Position numbers and translations under genes: made by a program. Below, piece after piece: positions 88 to 57,044 of a stretch of 64,000 nucleotides of DNA. Under the pieces are notes generated by a model that made no database searches, was not told the DNA's origin, and saw only the letters and a program-made list of their open reading frames with translations. The DNA lies in the NCBI GenBank assembly GCA_950295325.1, contig OX485804.1, forward strand, positions 20,648,001-20,712,000, written 5' to 3'. Positions within the stretch are counted from its first letter, which is position 1; each line of letters opens with the position of its first letter. This DNA comes from Polytrichum commune. Its lineage: Eukaryota > Streptophyta > Polytrichopsida > Polytrichales > Polytrichaceae.

Positions 88-1395
88 TAAGAGCGCCTTC
101 CCATTTAAGTTACCACATGTGATGAACCCTTTGACATCGAACCCTCTTCGTGAGGAATTTTGATAGTGTGTTTTCAGATAATGTTGGCGGGTGAGGAAAA
201 TCCAACATACATCAATGGACCAAGTGATTATGTCTAGTATAGCCTAACGTGGGTCTCTCCATGTCCACAAAGCATATTTGAGCTACATATGTCCATTTTA
301 AAACTAATTATGTCCATAGTGACCTTTTTAAGTATTCAATTGTATTTAGAATGCATTTTTTAAATTGGTGGAATACCTTCGTGTCATTCAAGATAACGCC
401 CGTGTCTAAGTATCGGCATGAATGTGAGTCCGTTGGCCTAATGTTGATCACATGTTTTGTGATGCAATACAAGGTGTTGTGCCCCCTTTGGGAGGTGGGC
501 TCTTGGGGTGCAAAAGTAATCCCATTTTATGGGGGACGGGGGATGGGCATTTGTTTGTTGTCTAGTTTCTTTTTGTTTAGGACAAGGTACGTAAGGCATT
601 TGATGGTATTTTGGTTTATGTTTTTCATGAGAGTTTTAATGATGGACTTTGGGATTTCAAGTTGGCAAGTTTGTTGATGGAATGTTCATGTATGGCCCCT
701 CTCACTCCGGTTGTGATGGTGATGAGGGGGTTGGTTTGCCATCCCTGGTTTTGTATGGTGTTGATTAGTGAGTCATATTTGGTGTGTTTATGTGTGAGGG
801 CTTGGTCAGGGAATATGTCATGATAGTATGTGAATTCAATCAATTGGACTGTGAGTTTGGAGGAGGGTGTTATAGGTGTTTGTATTTGATTTGGAGCCTC
901 GATTATGCACAAGATGTTTGGTCTTAATTTGGCTTGGGATTAGCAGGTCGTTTGTGTACATGTGCATTTAAGGAGCCATTCCGGAATTGTTTGTTCGGGT
1001 AGTGTGTTATTCAGGTGGCATGCATTGGTCAGTGTGAAGAACCGGGTGTTTTTGGGAGTTTGCAATGTATGGATGATGAGGTGTACCACTTTGTTGTGTC
1101 GAGCGATTCTTAGGCCTTTTAACTATGTTGAAAGGAGGTGGGGCCATGTGTCACTGTCATTGTGTTGACACAACGTGCATTGGGGTTTTGATGTGTGAGG
1201 GGCCAAAATATATTCTTCCTATGGTTACCCATGTGTTGGGTATCTAAATTTTAACGTTTGGGTGATTTGGGTGTTTGTCACATTTTCATTTTTCCAAAAG
1301 TGGGAGGACAATTTTTGATTTATTTGGGTGTTTGATAGCCACTTGTTCATGTAGGGGAATTTGGTTTTGGCCGTCTCAATTTCACAGTTTTTGTG

Positions 1396-1941
1396 TTATT
1401 TTGTTACAAATGTGTGAAGATTACGGATGGCTCCATCATGTGTGGTTGTAAGGCAACTTGCCAGCCAATAGGGAGTAGTGTGTGCTATGTGTATATGTGG
1501 GGTGGAGGTTGGTATTCCTATAACTGTGCGTTTGTTGGCTAGTGTGTCAGTTATTTCATTTCCAGTAATGATTGGGTGTGCTTGTACTTTATGTATGTGA
1601 ACTGTGTGTGTGGGGTCCAATGTATTTGGCGTACAATGGATGCTATTGATAGTTTGTTGGGGGTGGTGGTGTTGTGATGTCGGGTGATGTATGTGGTTAT
1701 TAATCAGGTATATGCTTAAGCTATCTGTAAATATGTGCATGTCTAGTTGGGTGGTTTGTATGGTTTTGATGGCAAGTAGTATTGCGTTAAGTTTGGCGCA
1801 TAAGATATTTTGGTAGCCTGGGAATATTTCTGCTATTGAGATGTTGTTGTTGGGGTTGTAGACTCCTGATCCTATTGTTTTTCCATTTATTTGTCCTTTG
1901 GCATTTTTGATGGGTGGGATGAAAGAGCCATCCGTGCACAT
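1396..1941 (-). pseudogene. RNase H domain of the reverse-oriented LINE
   Basis: This 181-codon open stretch shows the RNase H1 fold signatures in order. TDGS near residue 3 carries the first catalytic Asp. The stretch CAKLNAILLAI has Lys where the catalytic Glu of the usual AEL motif is expected. FTDSL near residue 92 carries the next Asp. VQAH...GNEITDTLANK near residues 118-137 carries the His and the last Asp. RNase H removes RNA from the RNA/DNA hybrid during target-primed reverse transcription. The lost Glu, and stops on either side, indicate an inactive relic. It is the part of the LINE best preserved as an open frame. Confidence 0.8.
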
Positions 1942-3260
1942 GCATTGTTGCGGGTGGTATTTAAGGGGATGAATGTGGTAGTATTTGGCTAGTAGGGGTG
2001 TTATTTAAGTGTTTATTGGGGTGGGGGTACGGTGTTTGCTTTGGGGGTATCTCTCCATGCTTTGGAGATCTTTACGTGGTATATCGTAGGGATGGGTTTA
2101 ATGGGGTATGTGTCTATGTGTGTGTTAGTTGTGTTATGTAGGACTTGTTGGAGTGCATGTGGGGTTTGTAAGTTTGTTGTGGGGTGTACTTGGTTATGTA
2201 TGCATATTATTGATGTCAAGGCAATTTCTATGCGTTTGTAGTATTTATGCCATTCGGGTTTGGGGTCATAATTTATAGCGTGGGGTGGGATGGTCGCTAG
2301 GATGTGTATGTTTGCATTTGTTGTGATTGGGAGTTGTTGTGTTGTCCAGCCATTGTGGTTGACAATTAGTATGGTAACTGTGTGTGTGTCTTATTTGGCT
2401 GCCATTCTAGCCCAATGGTATGGTTTCCATGGTTGTCTTGTAGTCTATGGGACGTGCTAGGCCTATTCCATTCCACCTGGAGGATTTTGTGTGTCCTAGG
2501 GAGCCGAATATTATATCCCGGTTGTGAGGTGAATTATATTGCGTGAGTTGGGTGGGGCATGTAAGTGGGGAGGTGTAAAGTGTATCTATTAATAACATGT
2601 TGATGTCCGGGTGTAGTGTGTGGTGGTTGTTATTGGGGTGTATGTTTTTTGGTTTTTATTTAGGGAATATGGTTATGTATCTTTGTACTAGCCATAGTAT
2701 TTCAGTTTTGAAGTCTTGCAGTGGGGGTTGTAGGAAGTTAGTTAGGTGTGGGAGGTTATTGTGGGAGTATTGGTTCCATAGCCACATGAGTCTTTCGGTA
2801 GTGATGGTGGCTATGTGGTTTTTGTTGTAGCTTGTATTTTTATGGTTGGTTTATTTACAAAGATGTCTTTATCCGGGTTACATTCTTGTGTAGATATTTT
2901 GAGGTTGGTGATTTTTAGGGAAAAGTGTATGAATTTGTTGTCTTTTGTTGGAGTGTAGTTGAGGTATGTAGCATAGGTTTGGGTGGTTTTTGGTTTTAGA
3001 GTTTTTTAGTGATATTGTGTGACGAGGAGTAGATTGTGGTGTAGAAGTATGGTGTTTGGGTGTAGGAAGTCTTCTTATGTGCGCCATTGTTGTATGATAC
3101 CTCCCGTGGTTTGCCATTGGCATAGATATGTCTTTTTTTTATGGTATGTGCTCCCCATTTTATTTTATTTTTTGTGGTAGTTTTTTTGTTGATGATGGCA
3201 TGGATTGGTTGTCCTAGGATGGGCTGTGGCGAGGTGCTTGAATTATGTATATTGTTTAGG

Positions 3261-3625
3261 TGAGGCACCACGGGCCTTGGCTTGGTGGTTAGGGCTCATG
3301 ACCCCCAATGAGGAGGTTGTGGGTTCTATTCCCCATGCCGGCGTGGTGCTCACCACCTTAGTCCACCCAACTATGCTGGGGGGTCCTTGGACCTTGTTGT
3401 ATGGGTACCTCAAAGCCCTTTGGGGGGATACCATGTCCGGTATCTTCAAGGCACTAGTGGCTAGCTAGGAACTAGTACGGTGTGTCACTATAGTGCCCAT
3501 CCTCGAAAGGGGAGAGTAGTATTGCCCCAATGTCCCCTTGTCCGGTGGGCATCGGGTCATTGACATTACGAACGGACACTTTATTCATGCTGGCCCCTTC
3601 ACAAGGACCGGAGTTTCTATCTATC
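3261..3625 (+). mobile_element. tRNA-derived SINE inserted in the LINE
   Basis: A tRNA-like head carries an A-box-like TGGCTTGGTGG (3278-3288) and a B-box-like GGTTCTATTCC (3322-3332), about 33 bases apart as in tRNA genes, so RNA polymerase III transcription from the plus strand is plausible. The body continues to a 3' segment (about 3480-3615) ending GGACCGGAGTTT plus a short TCTATCTATCT tail. A 9-bp direct repeat TTGTTTAGG (3252-3260 and 3626-3634) flanks it, which fits a target-site duplication. The 3' segment is homologous to the 3' end of the LINE at 12810-14053. No cloverleaf tRNA can be folded, so this is not a tRNA gene. Confidence 0.82.
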
Positions 3626-3957
3626 TTGTTTAGGGGTGTTCGCGGTGTTGTTTGTGACTAGTCTCCATGGGGTGTGGGTGTTGTTGTGCATCTTTGATGA
3701 CTTTGGGCATGTGTTTGTGTGTGGTTCGGAACTCTTCAGGGTTAGTATGGTTTTAGTTTCTTTGTTTTGGATTTGTGGTAGCATTGTGATACCATATGTA
3801 CATAGGTTGTCAAGATAATGCTGGGATCTTGTCTTTGCATTGTCCGTTAGGTTGGCGTATATTGGGTTGGATCTCCATACTAGTTCAAGTGGGGTCTTTG
3901 TGATGGGGTATGTGCGGTTAGTCGTGGTAGTGTGTATTTCATATTCTCTTTCCAATA

Positions 3958-4589
3958 CCGTAGCACCATAGTTGGTTCGTGCAAAAATAATTCCCAAAAA
4001 AAAAACCAAAAAAAAATTGGAAATTCTGAACCCAGTCAAATGAATAAGTGAAAATTTATATTAGGGGAAAACTAATTAATGGAAATTTTGGACTTCTTCT
4101 AAGCTCCAACCACGTCAATGCGCCATAAGAGGTTGCATGCTAACGCGTTAATGGCTCAACACCCTACTCACTCAAAGCGGCAAACTCTCTTTCTATATCC
4201 ATCTCCCTCTCCTCCTTGTTAATAGGCATTAAAGCAAAATCAACTCGTTGTTGTTTTGGTGCCATTTATAACACTGTTCTCACACATGTCAAAGTGCAAG
4301 TACGTACAAAAGACCTAACACATGCACTATGCAAAGACAAACAAGAGCCACACTAAATAAGCTTAACGTGGATATTTAGGTTTAAGGCCAAGAAGCCGCC
4401 ACAAATGAATGAAAAAAACAAATACCTACTTCCAATATTACTATACCTTACCAAAAAAACGAATTAAATATTTTTAAATCATAGGATTGATGAAATTTCA
4501 TAAATTATGTTTTTAGTTGACAAACCTTTATTTTCAAAAAATAAATAAATATTCGTTTTGAGGTGCATGACCCAACTATGGTGCTACGG
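3958..4589. mobile_element. 632-bp MITE with 26-bp TIRs and TA target duplication
   Basis: The two ends are inverted copies: CCGTAGCACCATAGTTGG starts at 3958 and its reverse complement ends at 4589. They match at 24 of the first 26 positions and are flanked by TA (3956-3957, 4590-4591). The interior is AT-rich with no ORF. The element interrupts the reverse-strand LINE. Joining the LINE sequence on either side with one TA kept restores its reading frame, confirming the boundaries. TA duplications are typical of Tc1/mariner-type MITEs; this TIR is not the Stowaway CTCCCTCC type, so the family is left open. Confidence 0.85.
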
Positions 4590-5439
4590 TAGGAAGAGTG
4601 TTATGGCAATGGGTGATCTTGTGCATGCTTGTTGTTTAAGTTTGGGGAGGTGTAGTGAACAACCGTACTTGGCCAATATAAATTTGGCTAGTCCTTGGTA
4701 GATGGTGCCTAGTTGTCTTGGGTCGTTGAGGGCTTGTATTAGTTATTGACCTATGCATTTAATATAGTATGAGAGGAGCGAAGTCATGTCTATGCCACAT
4801 TCATCGTGTGGGAGGTGTTTGAGGATATTTGTTGTGTTTTTGGGTATGTTGCATATTTCTTTGGTGAGTTTGCTATTTATTTTGTCTAGTTTTTTAATGT
4901 TGGTTTGGAGTATGGGATTGCGTAGTAACCGTTGCAATGCGTGGTTTTATGACTGTGCTTAAGATTTTAAGTTTTTGTTTGAGGCTTGCTAGGGAGAGGG
5001 TTAGTAGTTGACTATGTTGTTTGGCTTTTTGTAACGTGATATCTTTTTGTAGCTTTCATTTGAGTGATGGCATTAGGTGGATGCCAAGATATGTGTACTA
5101 TGGTTTGTTTTGTGTGAGGGTGGGGAAGTTTTTTGATTTGTATGTGATATTTTTTGATTGGATGTATGCTTTGAAGGTGTTTCGTTTGAGTTTGGATTTA
5201 TTGGGGTAGCCTGTGATGGCACATTTGAATAGGTTGAGGTTCATGTGTGACCATTATGCGAATTTTTGGAATTTGGAGATGCGACTAAAAATTAATATAT
5301 AAATTAATCTTCACAACATGGAGAACAACTGATCCTAATTCACCCATAGTGCTCATTTTGTAGGAATGCTAAATTATGGGGTTGATGTGAAGGTGGATGG
5401 CCAATTTTTTCAAAGTAATCCCACATAGAGTTTGATACA

Positions 5440-5640: not shown

Positions 5641-5872
5641 TGAATATGTGATTAGTACAATAATTTGAAACATGCACGGAAACCTTGGGGAACGTTGTGC
5701 ACATTAGAGAACCCACAAATGGTGTTCAATATACTAAAATAAGGAGTGATGTGAAGGCTAGTGACGTGAAGGCCAAGTTTTCTAAACACCCTATATAGAG
5801 TTTGATGCTTAATTTGCATAAGTGATGGGACCCACATACATTTCAAGGTTCATATGTCATTAGTACATTGAA

Positions 5873-6595
5873 ACAAGTACGTGAACCTTAAGGAATGTCA
5901 TAAGTATTGGGAAACAAGTAGGGGAACTGTAGAGAACGTTGCAAGCATTGGGGAACATTGTGGGAAGGCTGAGCACACCGGGGAACCCACAAGAGGCGTT
6001 CCATGTGCTAAATTAGTACTTTGAAACAAGCAGGGGAACCGTATGGAACGTCGTAAGTATTAGGAAACATGTAGGGGAACCGTAGAGAATATTGCAAGCG
6101 TTGAGGAACATTATGGGAAGGCTGAGCACACCAGGGAGCCCACAAGAGGCGTTCCATTTGCTAAATTAGTACTTTGAAACAAGCAAAGGAACCATAGAGA
6201 ACATGCAAGCATTGGGGAACATTATGGGAAGTCTGAGCACACCAGGGAACCCACAAGAGGCGTTCCATTTGCTAAATTAATACTTTGAAACAAGCAAGGG
6301 AACCTTAGAGAACGTCATAAGTATTGGGAAACGTGCAGGGGAACTCTAGAGAACGTTGCAAGCATTGGGGAACATTATGGGATGGCTGAGCACACTGGGG
6401 AACCCACAAGAGGCGTTCCATTTGCTAAATTAGTACTTTGCAACAAGCAGGGGAACCTTAGGGAACGTCGTAAGTATTGGGAAACATGTAGGGGAACCAT
6501 AGAGAACGTTGCAAGCATTGGGGAACATTATGGGAAGGCTGAGCACACTGGGGAACCCACAAGAGGCGTTCCATTTGCTAAATCAAGGGTGGTTC
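5873..6595. repeat. Minisatellite, 153-bp unit, about 4.7 copies
   Basis: The motif AAGAGGCGTTCCA recurs with its GAGGCGTT at 5993, 6146, 6257, 6410 and 6563, giving spacings of 153, 111, 153 and 153. The short spacing is one unit lacking 42 bp. Each unit contains smaller GGGGAAC-type sub-repeats. A weakly similar stretch from about 5650 looks like an older copy. Open frames here arise from the repeat and are not genes. Confidence 0.9.
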
Positions 6596-9730: not shown

Positions 9731-10288
9731 GGGCCGCTTCACACTATGGCCGTCCAAGTCGAGAGGCCGTGGGATTGAGTGGCCAAACTTTGTTGAGGGT
9801 CCAAATAAATGAGTTGAAAATAGTCAATAAAATATAGTAAGTGGAGCCTTTGGCCGGGCATAGTGTGAAGCCTCCAAAGGCTAAGCCCAAACTCCTAACC
9901 TTTGGCCATGAACTCCCACGGCCTCTCGACTTGGACAGCCATAGTGTGAAGCCTCCAAAGGCCGAGCCCAAAGTCCAAACCCAAAGGAGCATCCCACTTT
10001 ATTCCTTGCTCAAAATAACCCCTCCAATCTAATGGTCAAGATCTTGTCAATGATTGATATTTGAAGTTTGGGTCGAGCATTTTGCTCGACCCAAACTTTG
10101 CTCGAGAGGCCGATTTCTTGGCGCCATAACTTCCTAAAAGTGTTGCCACCTAGGCTCTTTTGGAGGCGACGTCCTTTGGACTTCAGTCTCTAGTGTGAAG
10201 GCCGAGAGGAAGGACTTTGGACATTTATGCATTTTCATTGGTCCAAACGCTTCTCCTCTCGAAGTTTGGCCATAGTGTGAACCGGCCC
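9731..10288. mobile_element. PIF/Harbinger-type MITE (558 bp)
   Basis: The left end GGGCCGCTTCACACTATGGCC (from 9731) and right end GGCCATAGTGTGAACCGGCCC (to 10288) are inverted, with TTA duplicated at 9728-9730 and 10289-10291. Subterminal copies of CATAGTGTGAAGCCTCCAAAGG occur inside in direct orientation at about 9858 and 9938. A truncated relative forms the first 87 bases of the window. The TIR resembles that of the coding Harbinger element at 57048-60490. Confidence 0.87.
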
Positions 10289-10648
10289 TTAGTTTTGGAC
10301 ACCAAAATGGAAATGCATTTAAAAGGAGATCCCTTGAACCGCTTGGGAGTCCGTTTTGGATGAAACACATATAGTAAAACAATAATCATGAACCTTATTT
10401 GGAATTTGGCATTCAAGCAAAAGTCATTACAAGGATTCAAGAATCATATTTGAATTGTATCTACTATACATATTTTCAATTGTTAAGAGATCATTTCCGT
10501 TGACCTTTCAAACCATTTAACCAGAGATTCCTTCAATAAAAGTAACTACATCTCAAAATTTTACTCAAAGTCACCTGATCGTTGAATTGCATAAAAGTAT
10601 GAGGTTTGAAACTTTGGTGGGAAAGTTAAGCCAAAATGTTCCTTCTTA

Positions 10649-11042
10649 GAGCATCCTCAGTCGGTCTAGGTAAAGCTCACTGCAAACCAAGACCTATCTT
10701 GCTTAAAATGCTCAAAATTTAGAGGGAGTGCACCAAATCTTGCTTAAAAATGGAAAGATCCTCCCACACTCCCTCTAAATGTCAAAAATTTGGAGGGAGT
10801 GTGGGAGGATCTTTCCATTTTTAAGCAAGATTTGGTGCACTCCCTCTAAATTTTGAAAATGTGGTGTTTTCAATGAGGGATTTCACCTACGTCAAATTTT
10901 TACAATTCTTTTTTCTTGAGAAATATCTCACGTTTATTTAGGTGTGCTTCTAATGATGGTAATTTCAGTTTCTAATTTTAGGTCAGTCAAAAGATAGGTT
11001 TTGGTTTGCAGTGAGCTTTACCTAGACTGACTGAGGATGCTC
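10649..11042. mobile_element. Tourist-like foldback MITE (394 bp)
   Basis: TIRs of about 52 bp begin GAGCATCCTCAGTC and match at all but two positions between 10649 and 11042. TTA is duplicated at 10646-10648 and 11043-11045. Inside lies a second near-perfect inverted repeat: about 68-nt arms at 10713-10780 and 10791-10858 with a loop of roughly 10 nt. Almost the whole RNA would fold into one long hairpin, a plausible small-RNA source. Non-coding. Confidence 0.9.
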
Positions 11043-12809
11043 TTACTCCACAATAAATATGACAACATTTATTAAGAAAAAAATTAAATGAGGGGCTGCA
11101 ACCACTTCAAGAAAGTCCAAGAAGAAAAGGAAAGAAAAGAACGATTAAAATACGCTTAGATTTGAAAATAATATTTTGAATACCGAGTTATGAAAATGTG
11201 TAGAATATTTTGAAGTTCACATTATGCACGATAACTTAGTAGAGTTCCTTGGGGTGATGAGAACTTTAGCGGGGCCAATAGTGGACCCCTTGGAAGTATT
11301 AAAAAAAACTGATGATTAATAGGAAGGTGATGAGTACACTAAAAAGGATATTTAGTGCTTGATACACTAAATACGAATGCATACACTAAATGTCAATAAC
11401 CCTGTGAAAGTAGGTACCATTAAATGTAAACTCAAACACTAAATATCAACTATGGTAATATGTGGAAGTTACATGTGTTGAATTTAGTGTCAATAAGGAT
11501 ATGAGAACCATGTTTCATAGGAAGGGAGGTGGCAGTAGGGAAGGTAGCGACACATTTATGTTTAACACTAATTGTTAAGAAATTGAAAATCAATAGTGAG
11601 CAGAGTAGGGTGATAACAACATTAAATATAATCAAACACTAAATATCCTTTTTAGTGTAGTGATACAATCTAGCCTTGATAATATGACACTTGATAACAT
11701 GACACCTTGATTATACGACGCATTTCCCATCGACCAAACTTTCTAGTGTTATTTTACCTTGATATTACGACTACAACGCTTGTAATACAACATATTGTAG
11801 GCTTGACTTGTCATATAATCGAGGTAATCAATGCGCGCATAAGGTGGGATGCACACTAGGATTTACCTTGGGATCAGGGAGTACATGGTAAATTCATCAC
11901 TAGGTTAACTTAATTTAACTCACGTTCATTGTTTTAAGCCTTGGTTTCAAAACACACATTACACTTTTGAGTCTTTGGGTTTGGGTGAAGGTTAAAGGGT
12001 TTAGGAAATTCTAGATTTGCAAACTAGAGTTTTGAAGTTGTTGAATTCTCTTCTCGATTTAGAAATTTGTCCTCATGCTTGAACTCACATCTCTTTAGTG
12101 TCACGCACCTCTCCATGAGGAGTGCCCGAATCACCATGGGCACAAGGGGGACCCCGGAGTGACACCTGGGACTTGTGCCGCCATTGGTGAGGGGGCCCAA
12201 ATGATCCTAGTGTGGGTGAGGGCCCTGATTGTTAAGAACGCCTCCCATCCAGGGAGACTAGGAGTCACAAGGTTAAGGCCGTGTATTATGAGTAGCTTAT
12301 GGCATCCAAATTCTAGAATGCTAAAAAACATCTCAATTGGAGGTGTGAGCTTGGAGATATGACAATTTCAGTGGGGCGCAGTCCAGGGACAACACTCTAG
12401 GACAACAGTGACCTGGGAGTGGCGCCATGGACTGCCTAGGTTTGAACAACCATATCTTCCTCAATACTTCTTGAATGAAGCAAATGAGGGGTTCATTTGC
12501 ATTTATGTGAAGAGCAGATGTTGATAGAGTGGTCGCTTAATAGCATCAAAGATGATGAGAAGAAGTTATGGTGGTCTAAAGTTGCTAGGGGCTTCTAGCC
12601 CCAACGGCTAAGGGAAAATGTCTATTTGGCCCCAACCCTTAAGAGAGAGACAAAAGGTTTCTTGACGGAGGGGTAGGGACCTTGCTCAAAGTCCTAAAGG
12701 CTTGTACGGGTGAGGCGGCTTTGCTGACCGACCCCACCTAGAGCATACTTGGCAACTATGTTTATGGTTGTTGTAGTGTTGCTTTGGCCACACAATGATC
12801 AACTCAAGA

Positions 12810-14053
12810 ACACGCACACCCTACACCATACTTCCTTCAAAAAGATTGGTGGCACTCAATGCAAGAAACGCCTGACAAAGGCCCCATCAGACACCTTGGC
12901 AAATACATCCTTAAACATGACAAAAAACATAACCTTGAAATCATAGCCACTCAAACCCACCAATTGCACAAATGGCTTGATAACAAAGACATTGACAAAA
13001 CACTCTCAAATGATTTATGGAATAGCCATGTCATCACTGATAAACAAAAAACATGTCTAGTAAAATTTAGAACCGGGCAATATATGGGGCATGCTCGGAA
13101 ACAACTTTTCTTCGGTAGGGACGCATACCCATCCCATACATGCCCCATCTGCAACTCCCTAGAAGCAGACACATGGTTACATGTACTCCTTAAATGCAAA
13201 CAACAACACATCCATGCATTAATAACAAACCGACATAACAAAGCAGTGTGGGAAATACGTAAACTCCTCATCTCAAACAAAATCTCAAGGCACTACATAC
13301 TCATGAACGCAGGAACACACAATGAAATACCCCAAGAAAACACAGTTCCAACATGGTTACTACCATGTACATGTGGTACCCAGAGATGCCATTGCAACGC
13401 TAGATTCAAACCAGACATACTATGCGTCCTAGGTCATCCATATAACCATCCACCACCAGACGCCCCTACACCATAAATTACTATCCAATGTATAGAATTC
13501 AAATATTGCAATGACATGTTTACTGCTGAAACTAGAGAAAGGAAAACCACAAAATATCAACCACTCATTAACAACATCATAGCAAGGGGATGGAACACCG
13601 CTCCACTCATAGTACTAGCAGCAGGTGCCAGAGCCACCACTCATATCCCCTCGATGAAAGAACTAGAAACAAAGCTTGAACTTCCACCCACACAAATTCG
13701 GAACACATTTAAACAAATCAACTTAATCGCCATACAATACGCACACTTAATACTAGTCCATAAAAGACGAATAGAAAATAGACAACCTATCACAAACATA
13801 CAAAACCACACATAAGATAAATAATAAAGTTAAAATAATGATAATAATAGATGACAATAAGAACAATAATGATAATATATTACCGGTTCTCCGGTAAAAC
13901 AATTGTCACTAACATAGTGTCTACTCCCTGCAAAGGGTGAAGTAGTATTACACCCAACGCCATTACCCTGGGGTATGGCCAAGGGTGTTCTACGAACAGA
14001 CACTTTATTCACTCCGGCCCCTTAAAGGGGACCGGAGTTCTTCTTCTTCTTCT
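12810..14053 (+). mobile_element. 5'-truncated LINE insertion with perfect 14-bp target duplication
   Basis: TGATCAACTCAAGA is present at both borders (12796-12809 and 14054-14067). The LTR copy at 55758-56738 carries the same sequence once, so it shows the empty site. The insert contains the last part of a LINE ORF2 (12811-13815), an AAT-rich stretch (13816-13873), a 3' segment (about 13895-14040) ending GGACCGGAGTT, and a (TTC)n tail. The start lies within the end of the RNase H region, typical of aborted reverse transcription. The 3' segment is shared with the SINE at 3261-3625. Confidence 0.9.
12811..13815 (+). pseudogene. LINE ORF2 C-terminal fragment
   Basis: The frame is open from the insertion point to a stop at 13474-13476, then continues in the same frame to 13815. 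So a single TAA breaks an otherwise intact 3' ORF2 fragment. It contains the CCHC-like knuckle CPICNSLEADTWLHVLLKC (about residues 111-129 from 12811), typical of the region after RT/RNase H in LINEs, and a tail (about 13516-13815) homologous to the reverse LINE's 625-912. With no RT or endonuclease it cannot move by itself. The good preservation suggests a fairly recent insertion. Confidence 0.85.
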
Positions 14054-14509
14054 TGATCAACTCAAGAGTGGAATTCCATGGATGGAAGTCCACATCTAAT
14101 CATTGCCTACCTACTAAGGGGAGAGTCCCGAATGTATGTGTAGGAGGGTTTGGTGACCAAGCTATGAGCTTGGAAATATGCAATTCAGGGAGTTAACCAT
14201 GCATGTGCATGGGATGTGCAGGCTAGCGCTCGTGGCATTTGCTAAAGTTGGGTACCGGTCAAGATAAGTTAAGGAAAGCTAGAAAGGGTTGTGACATTTC
14301 AACTGGAAATTTCAATCCTTGTTAACTTATTTACCTAGATTTGCCCTTGCCACTCTTAAATTTCTTGGTTCAAGAGGTGTCGGTAATCTTCAGTGGTGGA
14401 TGCTTTTCATTTTGGTTATAATTTCAACAATCTTGGTGTTGATTACCATGCATGTATACAAAACAATTTGCGCACAATTTGGTATGCATTGACCTCATCC
14501 GCATTGGTT

Positions 14510-15012
14510 ATGGCATTGGAAGATGTTTACAATATGGATGAGATTAGTTAACTTTATTGTGCCCTACCAAATAAGTCACCAAGGCAAGGACAAGTTCTTG
14601 GGCGCATAATTCCAAAGGACCGTACCACTCTTGTTCTTGTTGTAAACATGACAAACATTGATGAGTTGAACCTGTGGATATTTACAAATCTCTACGCCCA
14701 AGATGCTTTGGAAGGTGGTTGCCAACAAATTGTGTGTGATGGTTTGCACACCAAATGGCCTAGATGACATTATATGTATTTGAGAGTTGGATGACGAGCC
14801 TCAATATACATTTCAAATCTCAGAAGCAGAAGGTATTTTTAATTATGAACAATACTGCTACTCATTCCCTTAAGCATGTTGGTAGGGGTGAATCATTTGG
14901 TTTTTCAAACTTACACCTTAACAATATTACTATTGCTTTCTTACCACCTAATGTTACATATGTGGCACAACCCTTGGATCATGGAATAATTGCTTCATTC
15001 GGTTCAATATAA
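14510..15012 (+). pseudogene. pogo/CENP-B-type (DDE_1) transposase fragment
   Basis: Three blocks in order match the DDE_1 transposase core. YNMDE at about 14528-14542 has the first catalytic Asp. A block with GRIIPKDRTTLVLVVN (about 14600-14648) follows. Then comes a long block (14764-15012) with NNTATHS in place of the usual DNAxxH, FLPPNVT, and QPLDHGII carrying the last Asp. The second catalytic Asp has become Asn and several stops occur between blocks, so the enzyme is dead. The N-terminal DNA-binding half is not recognisable. A related but worse-preserved copy is at 29140-29300. Confidence 0.75.
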
Positions 15013-17286: not shown

Positions 17287-17530
17287 CTACACCAAGTCTT
17301 GGTTGGATTGGACAAATAAAAGATCGTTCACTATCATTGGCTTCAACCCGGAGCGCTTCTTGGTTAGCGTATTCCCTGCATCTGAGAAATTTGACTCCGT
17401 TTTGGAGTTGGATGCAGGGATGCACAAAACCGAACACGCCACGTGCGACCACTCGTGCGACATGATGGGGAATGTGGGGACTCCTTTCAGCTTCCACCAC
17501 AAGAGAATATTGAATTTAGCAGTGGTATCC
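17287..17530 (-). pseudogene. hAT transposase C-terminal dimerisation domain remnant
   Basis: On the minus strand this encodes the hallmark C-terminal hAT block: LLWWK, FPIMS, then CIPASNSKTESNFSDAGNTL, then KRSGLKP and a final LLFVQSN. The Ser/Glu/Phe-Ser cluster (xSxxxE..FS.aG) matches the family's conserved dimerisation domain. The reading frame is open for 190 codons (17859-17287), but its N-terminal two thirds are minisatellite sequence rather than transposase. The RNase-H-like catalytic core is absent, so it is a relic, possibly a source for nearby hAT-type insertions only in evolutionary terms. Confidence 0.8.
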
Positions 17531-17554
17531 AATATGCTTTGCTTTAGCCCATGC

Positions 17555-17720
17555 TCACCCATGAACAATAACATTGTAGCCATGCCCACCCATGCCCAGC
17601 CATGAACAACAATATCGTAGCCATGCCCAACCATGCCCAGCCATGAACAACAATATTGCAGCCATGCCCACCCATGCCCAGCCATGAACAATAATATCGC
17701 ACCCATGCCCACCCAAAACC
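17555..17720. repeat. Minisatellite, 41-bp unit, about 4 copies
   Basis: ATGAACAA begins at 17561, 17602, 17643 and 17684, giving an exact 41-bp period. Each unit also holds TAGCCATGCCCACCCATGC. Because 41 is not a multiple of three the units read in shifting frames, yet all frames on the minus strand stay open and give Trp/Gly/His-rich peptides. These are not genes. Confidence 0.92.
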
Positions 17721-17989
17721 CATGGGCATGGGCATGGATATGGGCACCCAATGTAGGGCTCTGGTGTACATACAATAAAACAATGAAGCAACCAAGGACC
17801 ATATTTAAAGACATGCAATTGCTGCATATCACAAGAAATACTGCAACCGTGGCTCTCATTGTCCAATGCGTATTTGAGATCGGTTTTAGTGGTCATGATT
17901 GTCTTAGGAGTGCACAATGTCTAAGAGGCCCCTATCCAATTATCCAACCCTTATCCCTAGGTTCCATACCTCATTGACCGATTGCTTTT

Positions 17990-21550: not shown

Positions 21551-23599
21551 TCACGTGTTGCTCTCGAAGAGTTCATGCCAGACATCCATGAAGACATCAA
21601 CGATGACTTCATGGTATTCAGACTCGTTGAGGGCGAGGTAGCACTGCAAAAGCTCCTCCAAATCGCTTGTCTCATGAATGTCTTGGTCAACTATCATCTC
21701 AATCATAGACTCCCGAAAATCATTGTATGGATCATATGAGCTTTCCACCACCACAGCTACACTGTCCTTGACGACACCCTGACTTTGCTTCGGACTTTGC
21801 CTCGGACCCCCTGAGATAGAAGCTTCAGGAGAAGAAGCCACGATATAATCCGGTGCCGAAGCCGCTTGCTTCAATTTCCGTTGCTTACTCCGCCTTCGTG
21901 TCTCGTTGAACTTCTTCTTCCTGTTGCCCACCACCTCATCATAGCGCATTTGTGGAGGGTCAAACATGTTGATGTCCTCCCGTTGGGGATGGTTGGTCCT
22001 CTCTTCGCTATTTCCTGCTGGAGAACGCTTCTTCGAAGTCTCCTTCTCGACAGATCGCTTCCCCTTTCGAGCCCTGGTAGGAGACATGCTGGAATTACAA
22101 TCGAATTGTATAGCGCGACGTGTCGATTCAATCTCATGTTGTTGCTCATCCCTTGCTTGCTTAGCTTCTTTGGCGATATGTGCGGTGATACAATGCAAGT
22201 CCTTGCTATGATCATCCAAAAAGTCTGAGGATCGCGAATCTTCGATCTTCAGAGTACAAAAATCGATTGCCCATACCTTCGTGGACGATTCGAGGAAGCT
22301 CTCGAACACAGGGGAGTTATGAAGTTCGACTTGTGGACTGTTATACCTTATATCCTCTTCCTCAGTGAGCCTCTTCAAGTTGTATTGATCCAATGCTTTG
22401 TCCAAGGATGCTAATACCTTCTTCGTCTCTTCTTCCCTTCTCTTCTCTAATTGTCGTTGCTCTCTGGACACCTCTGCCGCAAGAACCTTGGCTCGCAACA
22501 AGCTTTGGCTGTCCGAAATGTTGCCATTATCGGTGAAATCTCCACTGTAAGGGATTAATGCACTCTCAATCTCTGGAGTAATCCATGACCTCCTGTCCAT
22601 GATCAACCCCCCGGATTCACTGCTACTACCGAAAGAGGAAAACGATGAGCTCCAAGGGGGAGCTGGAGTTGGATCCTCGAAGAGATCGTCATCTGTCTCC
22701 TGGAGGGTCATCATCGGAGCATCGTCACTTTCGGAGACGTCGGTGAAACGATTGCCGAGAGTCTGGGGTTTCAGATAGTCACTGGGAGAAATCTTAGGAT
22801 CATCAACAAGCCACTTCACAACTTCACCGTCGGTCAATTCCACGCTCCACGTATCTGGATTGTCTCCTGACCACGACTCAAACTTCCTTGCCCTCCAGGA
22901 ATTAGCCTCCGCTTCCCGAACTCTGTCTTCCCCTGTTTCAAGCCCGGTAAGTATATCCAATTCTATCATTTTTGCATCGTTTCCCAAATCCGTGCTCACA
23001 TGTTGTGTGCGCCGACGATTCCTTCGGGAAGCGCTGCCGCAACCTGCAAGGAACCAAGCCCTCAAGGTGGTGTGCATATCATTTTTTCGAAAAGATACGA
23101 GCTCCGAATTGCCCTCATTGGTTATTGTCTTCACTCCTGCCACATTGCACAGATTCTTCAACGAAGAAAGGGCAGATCGATAAGCATTCCTGGAGAATAT
23201 GGAAGTTGTGGTGTTACTCCCTGGAATTGTAGTATTTCTCGTCACACCCTGGAGCGTAAAGCCATTCCTCTCTGACGCAAAGAGATCGTCCCCCGGACTT
23301 CTGGGAGTGCAGCAAAGGAATTGTTGCTCATCAATTGCATTAGAAGAGCTCCCTGGAGCTCTGAGACGAGTGAAGAAACTCTCTCGATTCTTGTACACAT
23401 TCTCCACTACCTTGAGAAGGAATGGCGCCGAGTCTGCACCGTCGTTCACGGGTGGTGAAGTGTCAACTATAGCCACCTCCAAGCTAGACTGTCTTGATTT
23501 TCTTCGTATGGACCTCTTGAGCTTGGAAAACCACGGAGTAGGCAGAGCTTTACTGAAGAGCCCTGCTTTTGGCTTCTCAGTGTCCTCCATAGTCACCAA
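21551..23599 (-). CDS. OFP: OVATE family protein (putative transcriptional repressor)
   Basis: A single uninterrupted frame of 682 codons. The last 60 residues (about 621-680) form the OVATE domain, with DPYNDFRESM, then DLEELLQCYLALN, then EYHEVIVDVFMDVW, matching the family closely. OVATE proteins act in the nucleus as plant growth repressors, usually through TALE/KNOX-BELL homeodomain and other partners; that role is family knowledge. Upstream is a long, low-similarity region with a basic N-terminal patch (KLKRSIRRKSRQ), a predicted coiled-coil-like EQRQLEKRREEETKK stretch, and basic clusters near the end of this region (KGKRSVEKETSKKR, RRRSKQRKLK) that may be nuclear signals. It is much longer than most flowering-plant members. 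The start is ATG at 23599; a second Met three codons on (MEDTEKP) is equally possible. No intron is needed, as usual for the family. The plus-strand ORFs here are shadows. Confidence 0.93.
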   Translation of the reverse strand: MVTMEDTEKPKAGLFSKALPTPWFSKLKRSIRRKSRQSSLEVAIVDTSPPVNDGADSAPFLLKVVENVYKNRESFFTRLRAPGSSSNAIDEQQFLCCTPRSPGDDLFASERNGFTLQGVTRNTTIPGSNTTTSIFSRNAYRSALSSLKNLCNVAGVKTITNEGNSELVSFRKNDMHTTLRAWFLAGCGSASRRNRRRTQHVSTDLGNDAKMIELDILTGLETGEDRVREAEANSWRARKFESWSGDNPDTWSVELTDGEVVKWLVDDPKISPSDYLKPQTLGNRFTDVSESDDAPMMTLQETDDDLFEDPTPAPPWSSSFSSFGSSSESGGLIMDRRSWITPEIESALIPYSGDFTDNGNISDSQSLLRAKVLAAEVSREQRQLEKRREEETKKVLASLDKALDQYNLKRLTEEEDIRYNSPQVELHNSPVFESFLESSTKVWAIDFCTLKIEDSRSSDFLDDHSKDLHCITAHIAKEAKQARDEQQHEIESTRRAIQFDCNSSMSPTRARKGKRSVEKETSKKRSPAGNSEERTNHPQREDINMFDPPQMRYDEVVGNRKKKFNETRRRSKQRKLKQAASAPDYIVASSPEASISGGPRQSPKQSQGVVKDSVAVVVESSYDPYNDFRESMIEMIVDQDIHETSDLEELLQCYLALNESEYHEVIVDVFMDVWHELFESNT

Positions 23600-25015
23600 G
23601 AAATAGATATGATTTCTAATGAGACATTACAGTATCACGTAGCTTCACACTACCAAGATACCATCAGAGCAGGAATCGTTCACCGCTCCACCATTACGCT
23701 GCCAGGTGATGACACGGGTTGAATCCACGGAGTGCTGAGACTACAAGGATTTGGAAGTGATGTCAAAACTCTTCTGGAGTTGAAACACCTGGAGCCACAT
23801 CATTCAAAACATAACACACCTTATTAGGACATATCTCAACCAAAGATTATGTGACAGGAGGGCAGATCGCATGATTTCGGAATTTGGCGACACATGGAGA
23901 CATGCTTCGAAATAGAAGTGGTCATAGAAGTAGTCACAAAGGTGGAGGTAGGATCGAATTTCAACCTTTGACTGTTTGAAGATGATTCTTGAAGAGCGAT
24001 GGATGCCTAGATTTTCAATGGGGCAACATTCTGTACATGGATGTGTGCGACGACAGATTGAAAATGCAGTAATTGCAGAATATGCCTCGATATTATGTAG
24101 AGATAAGTGGGACCGACATGTTTCTCACGGGGAAGATACACATTCCCAAATTGCCCCGGCCAAGGGGTTTTCCAATGTCGAAGTCGGTAGGCGACCATCG
24201 CTTCTCCTGCTTTCCACCTTGCTATGCGCCTTAATAACCATCCTGTGTACAAAACAATGATGTTAGGATAAGAATTCTCTTGGAGGGTAGGGCAGAACAC
24301 CGGCCTTGCTCTTCAACACGCAGGCAAGCATCATCCGAATTCAAGGCGGTTGCTAACCTTTCCATAAAGAACCATGATTAAGGACTCCCTGTTCCCTGAA
24401 CCAGCTGCAGCCTCTACAATCAAAGAAGAAGCACCCTGAAGGCAGACGAAAGTTGTATGTATCTGTCCCTCACTCTTAAAATCCTCCTATCCATATACCG
24501 CAGGCATTCTCAACCTTCCGCCGGTTCGCAAAACACGAATTTACCACCTGGAAATAATGAACCTAGATGATTTCTGCGTGAACACGCCCCTCCTCTTCTC
24601 TGTTCTCCACGACACTCCCACTCGCTCACTATATTCTTTCTCTTGCTTCTGTAACTAGAAAAATAAACCTGCAGAAGAAAAACACGCCGTCAGAAATGAG
24701 TATGAGGGCTTTTTTTTGGTTGCACATAGGGTAACATGACTATATATAATTGCCATTGAAGGAATATTTATCGAAAACCACATATCTACCTACCAACTAC
24801 AAGCCTGTTGATGCCTTAGGTTTGTATGCTTCATTAGATGAAGCAATATGATGACCAGAGATCCACAGTAGGACAGTAAGAAAAATCTAATTTCTCTCTT
24901 CGACTATGACCGGACACAAGCTGTAGAAGAATAACATGAAGACTGGAGAGTTCAGACTGTGACTTACGAAGGATCAACCAACCCAGAATCCCATTGAATT
25001 GTCAGGTATTGCAAC
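23600..25015. promoter_or_regulatory. Upstream region of the OVATE gene, no separate gene seen
   Basis: This is the 5' flank and probable 5' UTR of the minus-strand OVATE gene. I see no coding exon with a recognisable domain and no clear transposon ends. A TATATATAA-like run occurs at about 24741-24748, but too far away and too common in AT-rich DNA to be called a TATA box. Confidence 0.35.
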
Positions 25016-28782: not shown

Positions 28783-30082
28783 GATATTTTGTTATACATA
28801 TTATAGGGGTTGATTATTGTTCAAAAGTATATTTGTATACTTATGTTAATGACTATATATGAATGGATGTTTTTTTGTGTATACATATTGTCACTTGTAT
28901 ATTTATTGTTGCAATTGTATGTGTATTACTTCATTTCACAAAAAATAACTTGTATATAGGGGGTTTTTAGAGTATGCAGTGAACGCACGTGATTCTAGGT
29001 TTTAATGACAGGTGCACCCCCCGAGAACGCAAGTTGATTGTTTTAAACCTTGGTTCCAAACATTGCGCTTTGGAATCTTTGGGATTTGGGTGGAGGTTGA
29101 AGAGTTTAGGGATTACAAAATTTGAGATTGATCTTTAGATCCAAGATGCAATGAGCATTTTATTTTAGCAATATTACTCTTGTTTTCTTACCACCTAATG
29201 TTACAAGTGTGGTACAACTCTTGGACTGGGGAATAATTAATTGTTTTTTTCAAAGTTAAGTATAAGAATAAGCTTTTGGAATGAGTTAGCTCTCAATTTG
29301 ATTCTACCACTCAATATACTTGAGGAAAACAATGCCTAATGTAAGACGTGATATTATGTGAAGCTTTGAGTCAAGTGTGGAGTGAGATAAATCCATGAAT
29401 CATTCCAAACATTGGGTGGATGTCCAAGATTTTACTTACAAAGTGTATTGCCAATTCTACCACAGATGATGGATGTGAGAAAATATATAATGAAAATAAC
29501 AACAAATGAATTCAAACAAATCTCATTTCATCTTTGAATCTTGGAAGTGAAGAGATGCTTATTGAAGAATATGTGTAGTTGGCAAGGGAGGAAATTGTTG
29601 ATGCAGAGTACAACATGGCTGAGTTGGTGGATTTGGCATGGGATAGAGAAGTCCATTTGGGTTCATACTTGAATGAAAAGCCAATGAAGGGGAATGATGT
29701 GGATAACTAGCTAGCACCAATAGTCAAGATTCTTCAAGCCTGTGATTATGCCCAACTACTATCAATTTTTACAGTGGAGGCATTCTTCCAAAGTTTTTGT
29801 AGATGTGATGAACATGCAATCCTTTACGGATAAACTGAACAAGATTTCCCGACATCAACCAACATCATTAGAACAATAGATTCTAACTTTATAGTGTGTG
29901 ATATGATGAAGACATCATCATGGGACTATATGTATCTTCTTAAATCCATATTGTTGTGAGCATATTTCTCCAATAAAATGATTCTTTCATACTTATGTAT
30001 CTTCATTGTGCATACAAAATGGCAATTTACATTGAAATAGACCACTTTCTTGGAAAATCTTGAGAATATGATATTGGGATAA

Positions 30083-50799: not shown

Positions 50800-51720
50800 G
50801 GTGCTAGATTAGCACTCATCAGCTGCGACCAGAAGTGTGTTGTGGTGTTCTGAGTGCCTGAGATTCTTGACAACGTATCTATTCCCAGTCCTTCCAACTC
50901 TGCTGTGTTGAGAAAGAAGGTTATGGAATTGCCTGTCAATAAGCATAATTGAAGTCTCTTCTCCTGATTTGCTTACTAGGGAATATGTGCACATGATCCG
51001 GTTACAAGGATCCCTGCGTGATGAGAAATTTATCAGTCATTAGGTCGGCTTGTCACCTTACCAGAAATTCCACCAGCACCAGGATAACTGTTGATCAATG
51101 GCAGGCGAGGTGCCAGGAAGGTCAAGACTCGAGACTCGAGAGTTGGTGGGACCCCACCAGAAACTCTCCTCGAGGCATGGGTACCGCAGTTTCTTTCCTC
51201 GAAACTACAACATTATGAATCTGGACTCTGAATCCTGATAGTGACATTCAGAAATTGAGCCCTGTGAAATCACTTGACCATTGATACCAGAATTATGCTC
51301 ACCGCAGTAGATAGCTGTCCAGAGGTCTTTATCAGAGCACTTTCTGCTGGCGGAGTAGTTTTCTATACCAGAATGGGAACCTAGATATAAAGATACAACT
51401 GCCTCACTCGTTGTACCAATCACTTGGACATCTATACCAGAATTATGCTCACCGCAGTAGATAGCTGTACCAGAGGTCTTTACCAGAACACTTTCAGTTG
51501 ACGGAGTAGTTTTCTATACCAGAGTGGGAACCTAGATATAAATTTGACTAGAAGAGATATATATATTTGTAGTAGATGTGGCTTGAGGGTAGGAATTTAA
51601 GGTAAATGTTATCTGTTGAAGAGGTGTTGATTGCTGAAGCAAAACCGACTCCCTCCACAGTTTTGTTCTGTATTTACAGAGTCAGTTTCGCCCATCTTCC
51701 GTGTGTTATAATATCGATTT
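50800..51720 (+). promoter_or_regulatory. 5' flank of the trihelix gene
   Basis: This separates the end of the Rieske-like gene from the trihelix start. It holds a 150-bp tandem duplication (51271-51545) and a TATATATAT stretch at about 51560-51567 that could serve as a TATA region for the downstream gene. No coding sequence is seen. Confidence 0.4.
51271..51545. repeat. Tandem duplication, 150-bp unit
   Basis: ACCAGAATTATGCTCACCGCAG starts at 51286 and again at 51436. The following TAGATAGCTGT, CAGAGGTCTTTA, GGAGTAGTTTTCTATACCAGA and GGGAACCTAGATATAAA recur in the same order with few changes. The duplication is recent and lies 200-470 bp upstream of the trihelix start codon. Confidence 0.93.
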
Positions 51721-51740
51721 TTCCAATACAAGTGTATGCC

Positions 51741-53333
51741 ATGAGTACTCTTGGGGACGGAGGGTTGCATGGCACTCATATGCCAGGGCTCAACCAAGAG
51801 AGAACTGGAAAGAAACGACAACGATCTGTGAAATGGAGCGAGGCTGAAACAATTCGACTGCTCGAGTGCTTGAGAGTTCGAGTACAGAAGAGGGAAAGGG
51901 GGGAGCAGTGTGCGAAGGGCTCCGCTAAGTGGGAGGAGATTGCGAAGGAGCTCCAAGACAGCAACTTCGAGTTTAGGTTGGGGAAGCATGTCGCTGAGAA
52001 GTGGGATACTCTTCGTCGAGTTTACCTTTGCGTGGAAGAGCATTTGAGATACGACGGGGATTTTTCAAGGGCTTTCCGGGAGAGCAGAGAAGCTTTCAAA
52101 TTCGTGCCTGCAGAGTATACCCAGAGGTGGCACGATTTGGCCGCGGTTTGTATTCCCACGCAAAAGGAGAACCCAAACAAGAAGCACAAAAAGAATGGAG
52201 CACAACCCTCGTTGAAGAATATTGCTGTTCACCAAGATCCTACGGATTTGAATCCAGCTTCGGTCGTGCAATTATCTGGAATTGCCTTGGCATGTGATAA
52301 ACTAATCAGAAGTGTGGACTTGAAGCTATTTCCTGCAGCCAAATCAAGCCCTTGTGATGAGAGGGAGGAACCAGATAATATTGTGACAGCCTTGCACTCT
52401 TTGGTCACAGCAGTTAAGACACAAGCCAAATTCGTGAGTTCAGGTTTTTCATCAAATATGCTCTTACCTTTCCCAATTTACATGTGGCAGGCATTCAATT
52501 GCCTGAAGTTCTGCAAATATGTCTGTCTCACGTTTTGAAAACGATGCTTTGTTTTACTGGATTGTGCATGAATCGAATTGCATTAACAGATTTTCTATCT
52601 ATTGATTCCCATTACTTCACTGCACAGATTCATATCTTCTGGAAATTCGCAAGCGTGACTGGAAATTGGTCGAGGATCTTGCTTCTTCTTTGTCTGAAAA
52701 GCACCATTGCAGTCCGTTGCCAAGACCTAGGTGGGTGTCAGCTTAACCTTTGACATTACATGTGATTCTGAGCAGCAGTCTCCCACACAATTCCCTTGTT
52801 CTGTGATAGGTAAGGATAGATCATGGCAGAAGAAGCTGTTGCACTAATTGTGAAGCTTGTGTTCCAGAAATATCGACCATGTACATGAGGAGCCTGTGGG
52901 GGGCAACCCGCCAGATTGGGCAAACGCCGCTGAAGGAAATCTTGTCTCAGGTAATTCCTCACGGGCAGGCATCCCAGACTACTTTTTATGAGGAACTCAG
53001 AACATCACTTCACGGGTGTGTCTAATATTTGCACCATTTTGGTGTCGATGCAGGGGAGCAAGAAGCTATTGATGTCGAGAAAGAGCTTTTGCAACTGCTG
53101 TCAAATCGAACTAAAATGCCCGTTCAGCCAATTGATAGGTGGGTCAGCTTAATCTTTGACATTGCGGTTGATTTTAAGCAGCAGTCTTCAACACAATTTC
53201 ACTTGTTCTGCTATATGGACTAGGTAGTGGGTGAGAGGAGCTATGATGCCGAAAATAGCAGGGGGTCATCATAGTTCCTCGAACCTAACTACTGGACACA
53301 GCCGGCACTTACATGCCCCGAGCCGCTTTTGAG
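51741..53333 (+). CDS. Trihelix (Myb/SANT-like) DNA-binding protein, multi-exon
   Basis: Exon 1 starts at ATG 51741 (MSTLGDGG) and carries a trihelix-type DNA-binding domain with its three spaced tryptophans at residues 32 (VKWSEAE), 64 (AKWEEIA) and 88 (EKWDTLRRVY). A Lys-rich stretch (NKKHKKN) may be a nuclear signal. Exon 1 ends at 52430-52440. Downstream exons 52628-52730, 52868-52950 and 53054-53138 join in phase and encode SYLLEIRKRDWKLVEDLASS, NIDHVHEEP..DWANAAEGN and EQEAIDVEKELLQLLSNR. A GTGAGT donor after exon 1 would put exon 2 out of phase; a donor 4 bases later fits, so that border is uncertain. The last exon is also uncertain (one possibility runs to a stop near 53333). An upstream in-frame Met at 51606 would add 45 hydrophobic residues and is less likely. 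Family members bind GT-type elements in nuclear promoters. The target is unknown. Confidence 0.75.
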
Positions 53334-55757: not shown

Positions 55758-56738
55758 TGTTGTGCACCTTTCCATGAGGAGTGCCCGCAACACCATGGGT
55801 ACAAGGGGACCTTGGAGTGACACCCGGGACTTGTGGCGCCATAGGTGAGAGGGCCCAAGTGATCCTAATATGGGTGAGGGCTAGGGCGTTGAGAACACCT
55901 CCTAGGAATCACAAGGGTAAAGCCATGAGCATTGGATGGCTTATGGCGTCCAAATTCTAGAATGCTCAAGAACTCCCTAATCAAAGGTGTGAGCTAGGAT
56001 ATATGGCAATTTGAGTGGGGCGTTGCCTAGGGACAACGCCCAACACACCAAGGGGCGCTGTGGTGGGATAACAGTGACCTTGGAGTGGTGCCCAAGACTG
56101 CCAAGGTTAGAATAACCATAACTCTCGCAATTATTGCCCGAATGGGGCAAATGAGGAGTTTATCAACATCTACACGAAGAGTGGATGTCGATGAACTAGT
56201 CGCTTGATAGAATCGGAGATCGGAGAACAAAGTTATGAAGGTTTGAAGCTGTTGGGGGGCTCCAACCCCAATGGCTAAGGGAAAACGTCTACCTAGCCCT
56301 TACTCTTAGGAGAGAAACAAAAGGTTACTTGACATTGGGGTAGGGGCCTTGTCCAAAGTCCTAGAGGTTTGTATGGGAAGACGGCTTTGTTGACCGCCCA
56401 CTGCAAAACAACACGGCTTCCATGGGCGTTAGCCCAGTGTGAGGGCAAAGTTGCCAAGTATGCTTCAAGTTGTTGTAGTGTTGCTTCAACAACGCAATGA
56501 TCAACTCAAGATTGGATGGACATGAATGGAAGTCTGCACTTAACCATTGGCTACCTACTAAGGGGAGAATCCCAAATGCATGTGTAGGAAGGTTTGGTAA
56601 TCAAGTTATTAGCTTAGAAGTTGGTATGGGGAGCTGATCATGCGTGTGTGTGGGATGTATGGGGTTGGCGCTCGTGACACTTGCTTGAGTTGCAAAACGG
56701 TGAAGATAAATTAAGGGGAGCTAACAAGGGTCGCAACA
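55758..56738 (+). mobile_element. Probable solo LTR, copy 2, uninterrupted (981 bp)
   Basis: Starts TGTTGTGCACC and ends GGTCGCAACA. Homologous to 12099-14296 (minus its LINE) and, in reverse, to 61989-62973. It includes one TGATCAACTCAAGA, the LINE target site duplicated in copy 1. No retrotransposon genes adjoin it. No clear 5-bp duplication is visible (CCATG before, CTAGG after). Confidence 0.68.
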
Positions 56739-57044
56739 CTAGGCAATGTGTTTTGATATGAACACTTGGACATATGTAGTATGAGTTTTTGTTCTCATAT
56801 GGTTGGTTCATGTTTGTGCTTTACATGTTTATTGACTATCCCATTGTACCAATTGTTTCCTCGTCACTTGGTAGATCTAAATTCTTTTTTTGAAAATTTA
56901 GGATAGTTCCAGTGTTTTTAGTGTTTTATGCATGTGGCAAAATTCAAGCCCTCGTCGCCGTAGACACTTCGATCTTTTCAATATCTTTCTCTTTTTATCC
57001 CTTTCAGAGTCGGTGTCTATGGGTAGGCATGGAAGGAACGCTAC
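56739..57044. other. Intergenic between LTR and Harbinger element
   Basis: No gene or element end recognised. Confidence 0.4.

Follow-up and report, generated by a model that had tools for sequence, protein, structure and literature searches.

A SINE and a 5′-truncated LINE (LINE-1) share their 3′ ends in the window, the whole 64-kb stretch of DNA analysed here. The last ~130–190 nt of the SINE (3261–3617) align with the 3′ end of LINE-1 (12810–14053), and the SINE and a LINE lineage very probably constitute a stringent-type SINE/LINE pair, in which the LINE protein would recognise the tail and copy the SINE in trans. The donor of the SINE tail is a relative of LINE-1 and not the LINE-1 copy itself, since the latter is 5′-truncated and has an in-frame stop. 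A preliminary description of this DNA held that both partners could be named from 64 kb. This goes too far: LINE-1 is truncated, carries a stop and has a tail differing from that of the SINE at many positions, so that it counts as the partner's relative rather than the established partner, while the SINE cannot serve as a named family partner, one copy not making a family. Features are collected in Table 1.

Table 1. Position and character of the SINE, LINE-1, LINE-2 and their parts
Feature	Position	Strand	Evidence or description
SINE, 357 bp	3261–3617	+	antisense insertion within LINE-2; ends from target duplication and end of tail homology
SINE left target-site duplication	3244–3260	.	TATGTATATTGTTTAGG; 15/17 with right copy
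SINE right target-site duplication	3618–3634	.	TATCTATCTTGTTTAGG; first bases may be (TATC) tail
Pol III-like boxes	3278–3332	+	weak A box from 3278; B box GGTTCTATTCC at 3322–3332
LINE-like 3′ tail of SINE	3427–3617	+	well-aligned core 3490–3617; alignments
SINE equivalent of closed RNA core	3492–3580	+	P1 AGUGCCC/GGACACU (C-A mismatch), UCCUC-GAAA-GGGGA
LINE-1, 5′-truncated non-LTR element, 1244 bp	12810–14053	+	exact duplication and two paralogous empty sites
LINE-1 left target-site duplication	12796–12809	.	TGATCAACTCAAGA
LINE-1 right target-site duplication	14054–14067	.	TGATCAACTCAAGA
Paralogous empty site, host-repeat copy B	56442–56619	+	TGATCAACTCAAGA motif once, exact
Paralogous empty site, host-repeat copy C	62164–62320	-	TGATCAACTCAAGA motif once, 12/14 letters
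LINE-1 C-terminal coding part	12811–13812	+	one in-frame stop, TAA 13474–13476
CCHC motif, C-x2-C-x9-H-x4-C	13141–13197	+	read from LINE-1 translation
Putative restriction-like endonuclease	13231–13641	+	RHNK..., KPDIL, IEFKY, K..TKY motifs; partly conserved in LINE-2
LINE-1 structured 3′ tail	13880–14040	+	P0 hairpin, P1 AGUGUCU/AGACACU, CCCU-GCAA-AGGG, ACACCC/GGGUGU, P5 14011–14038
Terminal CTT repeats of LINE-1	14039–14053	+	sequence
LINE-2, decayed relative	393–5250	-	split by SINE, perhaps other DNA; outer limits approximate; upstream part by eye
LINE-2 CCHC/RLE-like region	667–1485	-	5 in-frame stops, one at expected last C of CCHC
LINE-2 RNase H domain	1399–2004	-	PF00075, E 1.3e-8
Candidate LINE-2 tail	393–504	-	P1 GAGCCC/GGACUC, CCUCC-CAAA-GGGGG, inner helix AUCACA/UGUGAU, terminal hairpin

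The shared 3′ tail

Local alignment of 3470–3630 with 13895–14053 gave a score of 348, which none of 2000 dinucleotide shuffles reached (mean 107.9, standard deviation 15.5, maximum 190). This bears out the preliminary description, which had proposed that the SINE tail aligns with the 3′ end of LINE-1 and had suggested an alignment of the two ends as a check. The four sequence blocks that it listed as common to the two tails were all located in both elements, with their order kept. When whole elements were aligned, 130 of 154 aligned positions were identical (gaps excluded) over a span that starts at 3427 and 13871 and stops at 3615 and 14039, at the terminal repeats; with gaps included, the identity of the tails in BLAST is 110/156. 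The 19-base pattern CGAAC(A/G)GACACTTTATTCA matches the window only at 3569–3587 and 13993–14011 when up to three mismatches are allowed, and two such matches were seen in 0 of 100 shuffles. No part other than the tail was found to be common to the SINE and LINE-1. Neither element ends in poly(A), and their terminal repeats differ, being (CTT)n in LINE-1 and TATC-like in the SINE.

Tail patterns were also sought in sequence collections, which are viral and prokaryotic and so little informative. A 20-base pattern had no matches in viral_contigs; the single match of a 19-base pattern in genome_contigs lies on a Bacillus contig and was taken as chance.

The ends of LINE-1

The target duplication of LINE-1 is exact over 14 bp. 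The repeat hosting the element has two other copies in the window, at 55764–56731 (+) and 61994–62966 (-), both without a LINE at that place, and the single-motif empty sites in these two copies fix the LINE-1 insertion at 12810–14053. Given the duplication and the two empty sites around LINE-1, this element truly ends in the shared piece, which is its own and not a SINE fragment alongside. The earlier claim that the piece forms the genuine 3′ end of the SINE as well as of the LINE is thus upheld by the target duplications, the LINE-1 empty sites and an alignment that reaches the terminal repeats.

A truncated SINE next to the LINE, which the preliminary description had named as the arrangement that would overturn its proposal, failed the empty-site test: it is ruled out by the single duplication and the two empty sites bracketing 12810–14053. 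It is likewise very improbable that a separate SINE fragment landed at or beside the end of LINE-1, the LINE family having no tail of its own. Such an event would suit the finding that the SINE and LINE-1 have only the tail in common, but one duplication and two empty sites enclose the whole of the LINE together with its tail, and a weak tail match is present at the end of LINE-2 also. Moreover, LINE-1 shows no sign of an inner insertion, as 13840–13925 and 14034–14080 have no 7- to 12-mer in common.

The SINE and its head

The 17-bp target duplication of the SINE is identical at 15 positions, and none of 3000 random pairs from the window was as similar. With its two mismatches, this duplication sets the end of the SINE at 3617 in place of 3625, the position given previously. 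The (TATC)2 at this end may belong either to the tail or to the duplication.

At the head of the element, the B box has one mismatch and the A box four mismatches to the long consensus. At the thresholds used, the two boxes occur together nowhere else on either strand. No tRNA was called at the head by ARAGORN or Rfam; a search of 3200–3700 with Rfam produced three sub-threshold matches, none of them a tRNA, and nothing in the window reached the gathering score. A decayed SINE head can fail tRNA detection by either program. As neither calls a tRNA, it is the Pol III-like boxes that speak for the tRNA origin given in the earlier description, and this origin is putative.

BLAST and a covariance model of the tail found one copy of the SINE in the 64-kb window and no second. 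This single copy would be natural if the SINE-like element were a one-off chimera, a tRNA-like transcript having been joined to a LINE tail in one reverse transcription. That origin is unlikely: the element matches an ordinary SINE in its size, boxes, tail and target duplication, and a window of 64 kb may well contain just one copy of such an element. It also overlaps with the stringent-type pair that we favour, in that the LINE enzyme would have made use of the tail in either case.

Coding regions of LINE-1 and LINE-2

LINE-1 seems to carry a restriction-like endonuclease (RLE), as judged from its translation: RHNK, KPDIL, IEFKY and K..TKY were read as a PD-(D/E)XK-like pattern. Pfam found nothing in two pieces of the LINE-1 protein, and no significant profile or PDB match was obtained for the putative endonuclease. 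A two-row profile matched the R2 structures 8gh6/8ibw at E 2.2, with two HaeIII methylase chains ranking higher (E 1); the R2 match vanished with a longer alignment and in a single-sequence search, and was dropped. A structure model of the LINE-1 protein was discarded for its mean pLDDT of 32.3. Three scans of viral_contigs with the LINE proteins picked up 23, 7 and 7 stretches by pattern, none of which was confirmed, a result of little weight for a viral collection.

LINE-2, the decayed relative into which the SINE is inserted, matches LINE-1 in the region 667–1485 with 34% identity over 284 columns (tblastn, E 9.8e-47 with composition correction off), and has PN at the position of the LINE-1 PD. 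Its upstream part is decayed and incomplete. Pfam found nothing in 500–1400 or 4300–5300 (three frames each), and no RT domain was seen on the minus strand of 4300–5300. A 9-base A/T-rich match was all that could be found by way of a target duplication, and is not convincing. The stretch 500–3250 is strongly asymmetric between strands, with a GC skew of about +0.4 to +0.6 and an AT skew of about -0.3 to -0.4, in agreement with an antisense LINE-2 whose coding strand is rich in A and C. Some 600 bp past the approximate 5′ limit of the element, tandem-like repeats at 5859–6575 have spacings of 153, 111 and 153 and identities of 65–91%.

The putative restriction-like endonuclease of LINE-1 and the RNase H domain of LINE-2 together fit a Dualen/RandI-like layout, as that clade is described (PMC4640811, PMC3636483). 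RNase H is found here in LINE-2 only (PF00075), LINE-1 starting downstream of where it would lie, and the domain is reported for other clades as well as for Dualen/RandI (PMC4640811). An additional APE endonuclease is a further mark of the Dualen/RandI clade; LINE-1 lacks its 5′ part, and little of the corresponding upstream part survives in LINE-2.

RNA structure of the tails

In the tail of LINE-1, a closing helix, P1, encloses the hairpin CCCU-GCAA-AGGG together with a long inner hairpin, and a strong terminal hairpin comes after it. Its fold (13895–14041) has an energy of -57.3 kcal/mol and z = -5.08, and 0 of 500 shuffles were as stable. The SINE core also pairs GU/AC and GUA/UAC inside, and has a long inner hairpin. 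A layout like that of LINE-1 is the minimum-energy fold of the SINE for 3490–3590 and 3470–3630 but is absent from that of 3470–3618 and of 3424–3617, so that the fold favoured by the SINE depends on the stretch folded. Its folding energy is ordinary (z = -1.00 for 3490–3590 and +0.18 for 3470–3617).

The capacity of the SINE to form this core was assessed by permutation. In 3490–3590, the 77 positions identical to LINE-1 were fixed and the other 24 letters permuted to give 2000 variants. The closing, inner and hairpin pairs were jointly matched in 15 of these, and in 6 when the long inner hairpin was included; singly, the closing helix was matched in 508, the hairpin in 340, the inner pairs in 40 and the long hairpin in 49. 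The consensus fold of the two sequences is marginal, 48/1000 and 64/1000 column shuffles being as good, and covariation between them does not rise above shuffles (125/500). Of 58 cells, 89.7% pair in the named structure compared with 29–53% when it is slid, the structure being itself derived from the same sequences; for P5, 83.3% are paired over its 12 pairs in a two-sequence count. A predicted fold of the tail, which the preliminary description had said would add weight, is thus stable in LINE-1 and one that the SINE can adopt, but in the SINE it is context-dependent and the covariation and consensus results are marginal.

These results bear on another reading, by which the tail is a product of common descent that no longer acts as a signal, the SINE being copied by another LINE by way of its terminal repeats (relaxed recognition). 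The difference between (CTT)n and TATC-like repeats, and the modest support for the SINE fold, would agree with this. Nevertheless, we think it quite unlikely: the SINE and LINE-1 agree best in mutually pairing blocks (AGTG/CACT and GTAGTA/TACGAAC), as well as in the TTTATTCA linker and the terminal hairpin, and a poly(A) end is missing from both elements.

A candidate tail in LINE-2

The SINE and LINE-1 tails were used to build a covariance model, with which the window was searched under default filters, matches being kept up to E 10. Five were returned: the two source tails, two reverse-strand echoes in the LINE-1 tail and 393–504 (-), the last with 9.5 bits and E 0.54 over the window. This is the site at which the 3′ end of LINE-2 is expected. 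Over the 231 bases of 330–560 the E-value is 0.0019, for a region chosen because of LINE-2 and compared beforehand, both by eye and by alignment. In plain alignment the candidate is at chance level against LINE-1 (220/2000 shuffles), while against the SINE the figure is 2/2000. Its folding energy has z = -1.51, and P1 is absent from the minimum-energy fold, although forcing it costs only about 0.5 kcal/mol.

Across the three tails, which come from the one SINE and two LINE copies available, pairing was counted by hand in a structure-fitted alignment. P1 has standard pairs in 18 of its 21 cells, and the five outermost pairs of P5 have them in 14 of 15 (the other P5 pairs being left out). Both-sided changes occur at pairs 3 and 7 of P1 and pair 3 of P5 in the same count. 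The match at the end of LINE-2 is weak, and we regard it as suggestive.

Other features of the window

The repeat that hosts LINE-1 forms one family with three copies in the window, at 12099–14291 (split by LINE-1), 55758–56731 and 61994–62973. A 691-codon frame at 21554–23626 (-) has an Ovate domain (PF04844, E 1.7e-25). In one study, OVATE proteins are reported for the 13 land plants that it covered but not for chlorophytes (PMC4814488), so the DNA probably comes from a land plant or a near relative, though it may also come from a streptophyte alga. A frame with a Myb/SANT-like domain lies at 51606–52535 (+) (PF13837, E 3.6e-10).

Other mobile or repeated sequences are also visible. A hAT dimerisation domain is found at 17290–17892 (-) (PF05699, E 2.6e-15), its frame also holding a 41-bp tandem repeat at 17549–17712, and a DDE_1 transposase fragment at 14764–15009 (+) (PF03184, E 2.6e-10). 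Stretches between 14918 and 16837 recur at 29165–30075. The near-perfect palindrome at 10712–10856, with 69-nt arms that are 99% complementary and 7 nt apart, is nested in a second inverted repeat (10648–10700/10991–11043) and is perhaps a foldback element. Copies of 91 nt at 1–91 and 10202–10292, 95% identical, end in a motif like CCATAGTGTGAACCGGCCCTAAG, with similar ends, seen by eye, at 57044–57085 and 60453–60494; these suggest a MITE family.

Proposed mechanism and significance

In the proposed pair, RNA polymerase III would transcribe the SINE from its tRNA-like head, and the last ~130–190 nt of the transcript would be a copy of the structured tail at the 3′ end of a LINE lineage. The folded tail, with its closing helix, tetraloop hairpin, terminal hairpin and CTT-like end, would be recognised by the LINE protein, which would then nick the target and start copying at that site (target-primed reverse transcription). 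The SINE RNA would then be copied in trans as if it were the LINE's own, and so be mobilised.

The putative LINE enzyme family looks unusual for plants. A 2022 review gives land plants L1 and RTE LINEs only (PMC9033089), a 2015 survey places Dualen/RandI in green algae only (PMC4438587) and, according to a 2025 paper, LINE/Dualen is reported in cryptophytes (PMC12747079). Among the matches listed in a search of titles and abstract starts in the open-access literature, which is weak evidence, there was no Dualen/RandI or RLE-type SINE/LINE pair in land plants. An RLE-type pair may be new for the land-plant line. It is possible, as a tentative proposal, that a land plant or close streptophyte has an RLE Dualen-like LINE lineage whose 3′ recognition RNA is multi-helix and deeply conserved, and that this lineage is parasitised by a tRNA-derived SINE. 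If confirmed genome-wide, the present case would add an RLE-type SINE/LINE pair for the land-plant line. The tail would then also be a compact, testable RNA signal for template choice by the LINE enzyme.

Comparison with known systems

In the eel, the shared tail of UnaL2 and its SINE partner, UnaSINE1, lets the LINE enzyme copy the SINE, as is proposed here. UnaL2 differs in being an L2-clade animal LINE, and function is shown by assay there and predicted from sequence here; UnaL2 and the eel experiments are cited in PMC3747384. R2 is of the RLE type, as LINE-1 seems to be, its proteins being described as having a CCHC motif and an RLE, and its structured 3′ RNA as binding the LINE protein subunit responsible for the first cut and for priming (PMC6895275). 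The R2 target is 28S rDNA, whereas LINE-1 sits in a dispersed repeat of the window, and the two are likened by their features and not by sequence kinship.

Shared-tail SINE/LINE pairs are already well known. PMC3747384 tabulates those of tRNA-derived SINEs with RandI in Chlamydomonas and pairs with L1 or RTE in flowering plants. Among the latter, maize ZmSINE2 and ZmSINE3 with LINE1-1_ZM, and tobacco TS with RTE-1_Stu, likewise have a common 3′ end, and a stem-loop is proposed in a plant L1 tail (PMC3747384). These have L1 or RTE partners, in contrast to the LINE with a putative restriction-like endonuclease considered here. In Chlamydomonas, SINEX-5 and SINEX-6 with RandI-5 are tRNA-derived SINEs whose 3′ end matches a Dualen/RandI LINE, the kind of pair suspected here, and SINEX-1, SINEX-2 and SINEX-4, of unknown head, are tabulated with RandI-2 or RandI-3, SINEX-2 ending in (CTTT)n (PMC3747384). 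As compared by description, the pairs of SINEX-5 and SINEX-6 with RandI-5 belong to a chlorophyte alga and have (ATT)n ends, while the elements described here have CTT and TATC-like ends and lie beside an OVATE gene.
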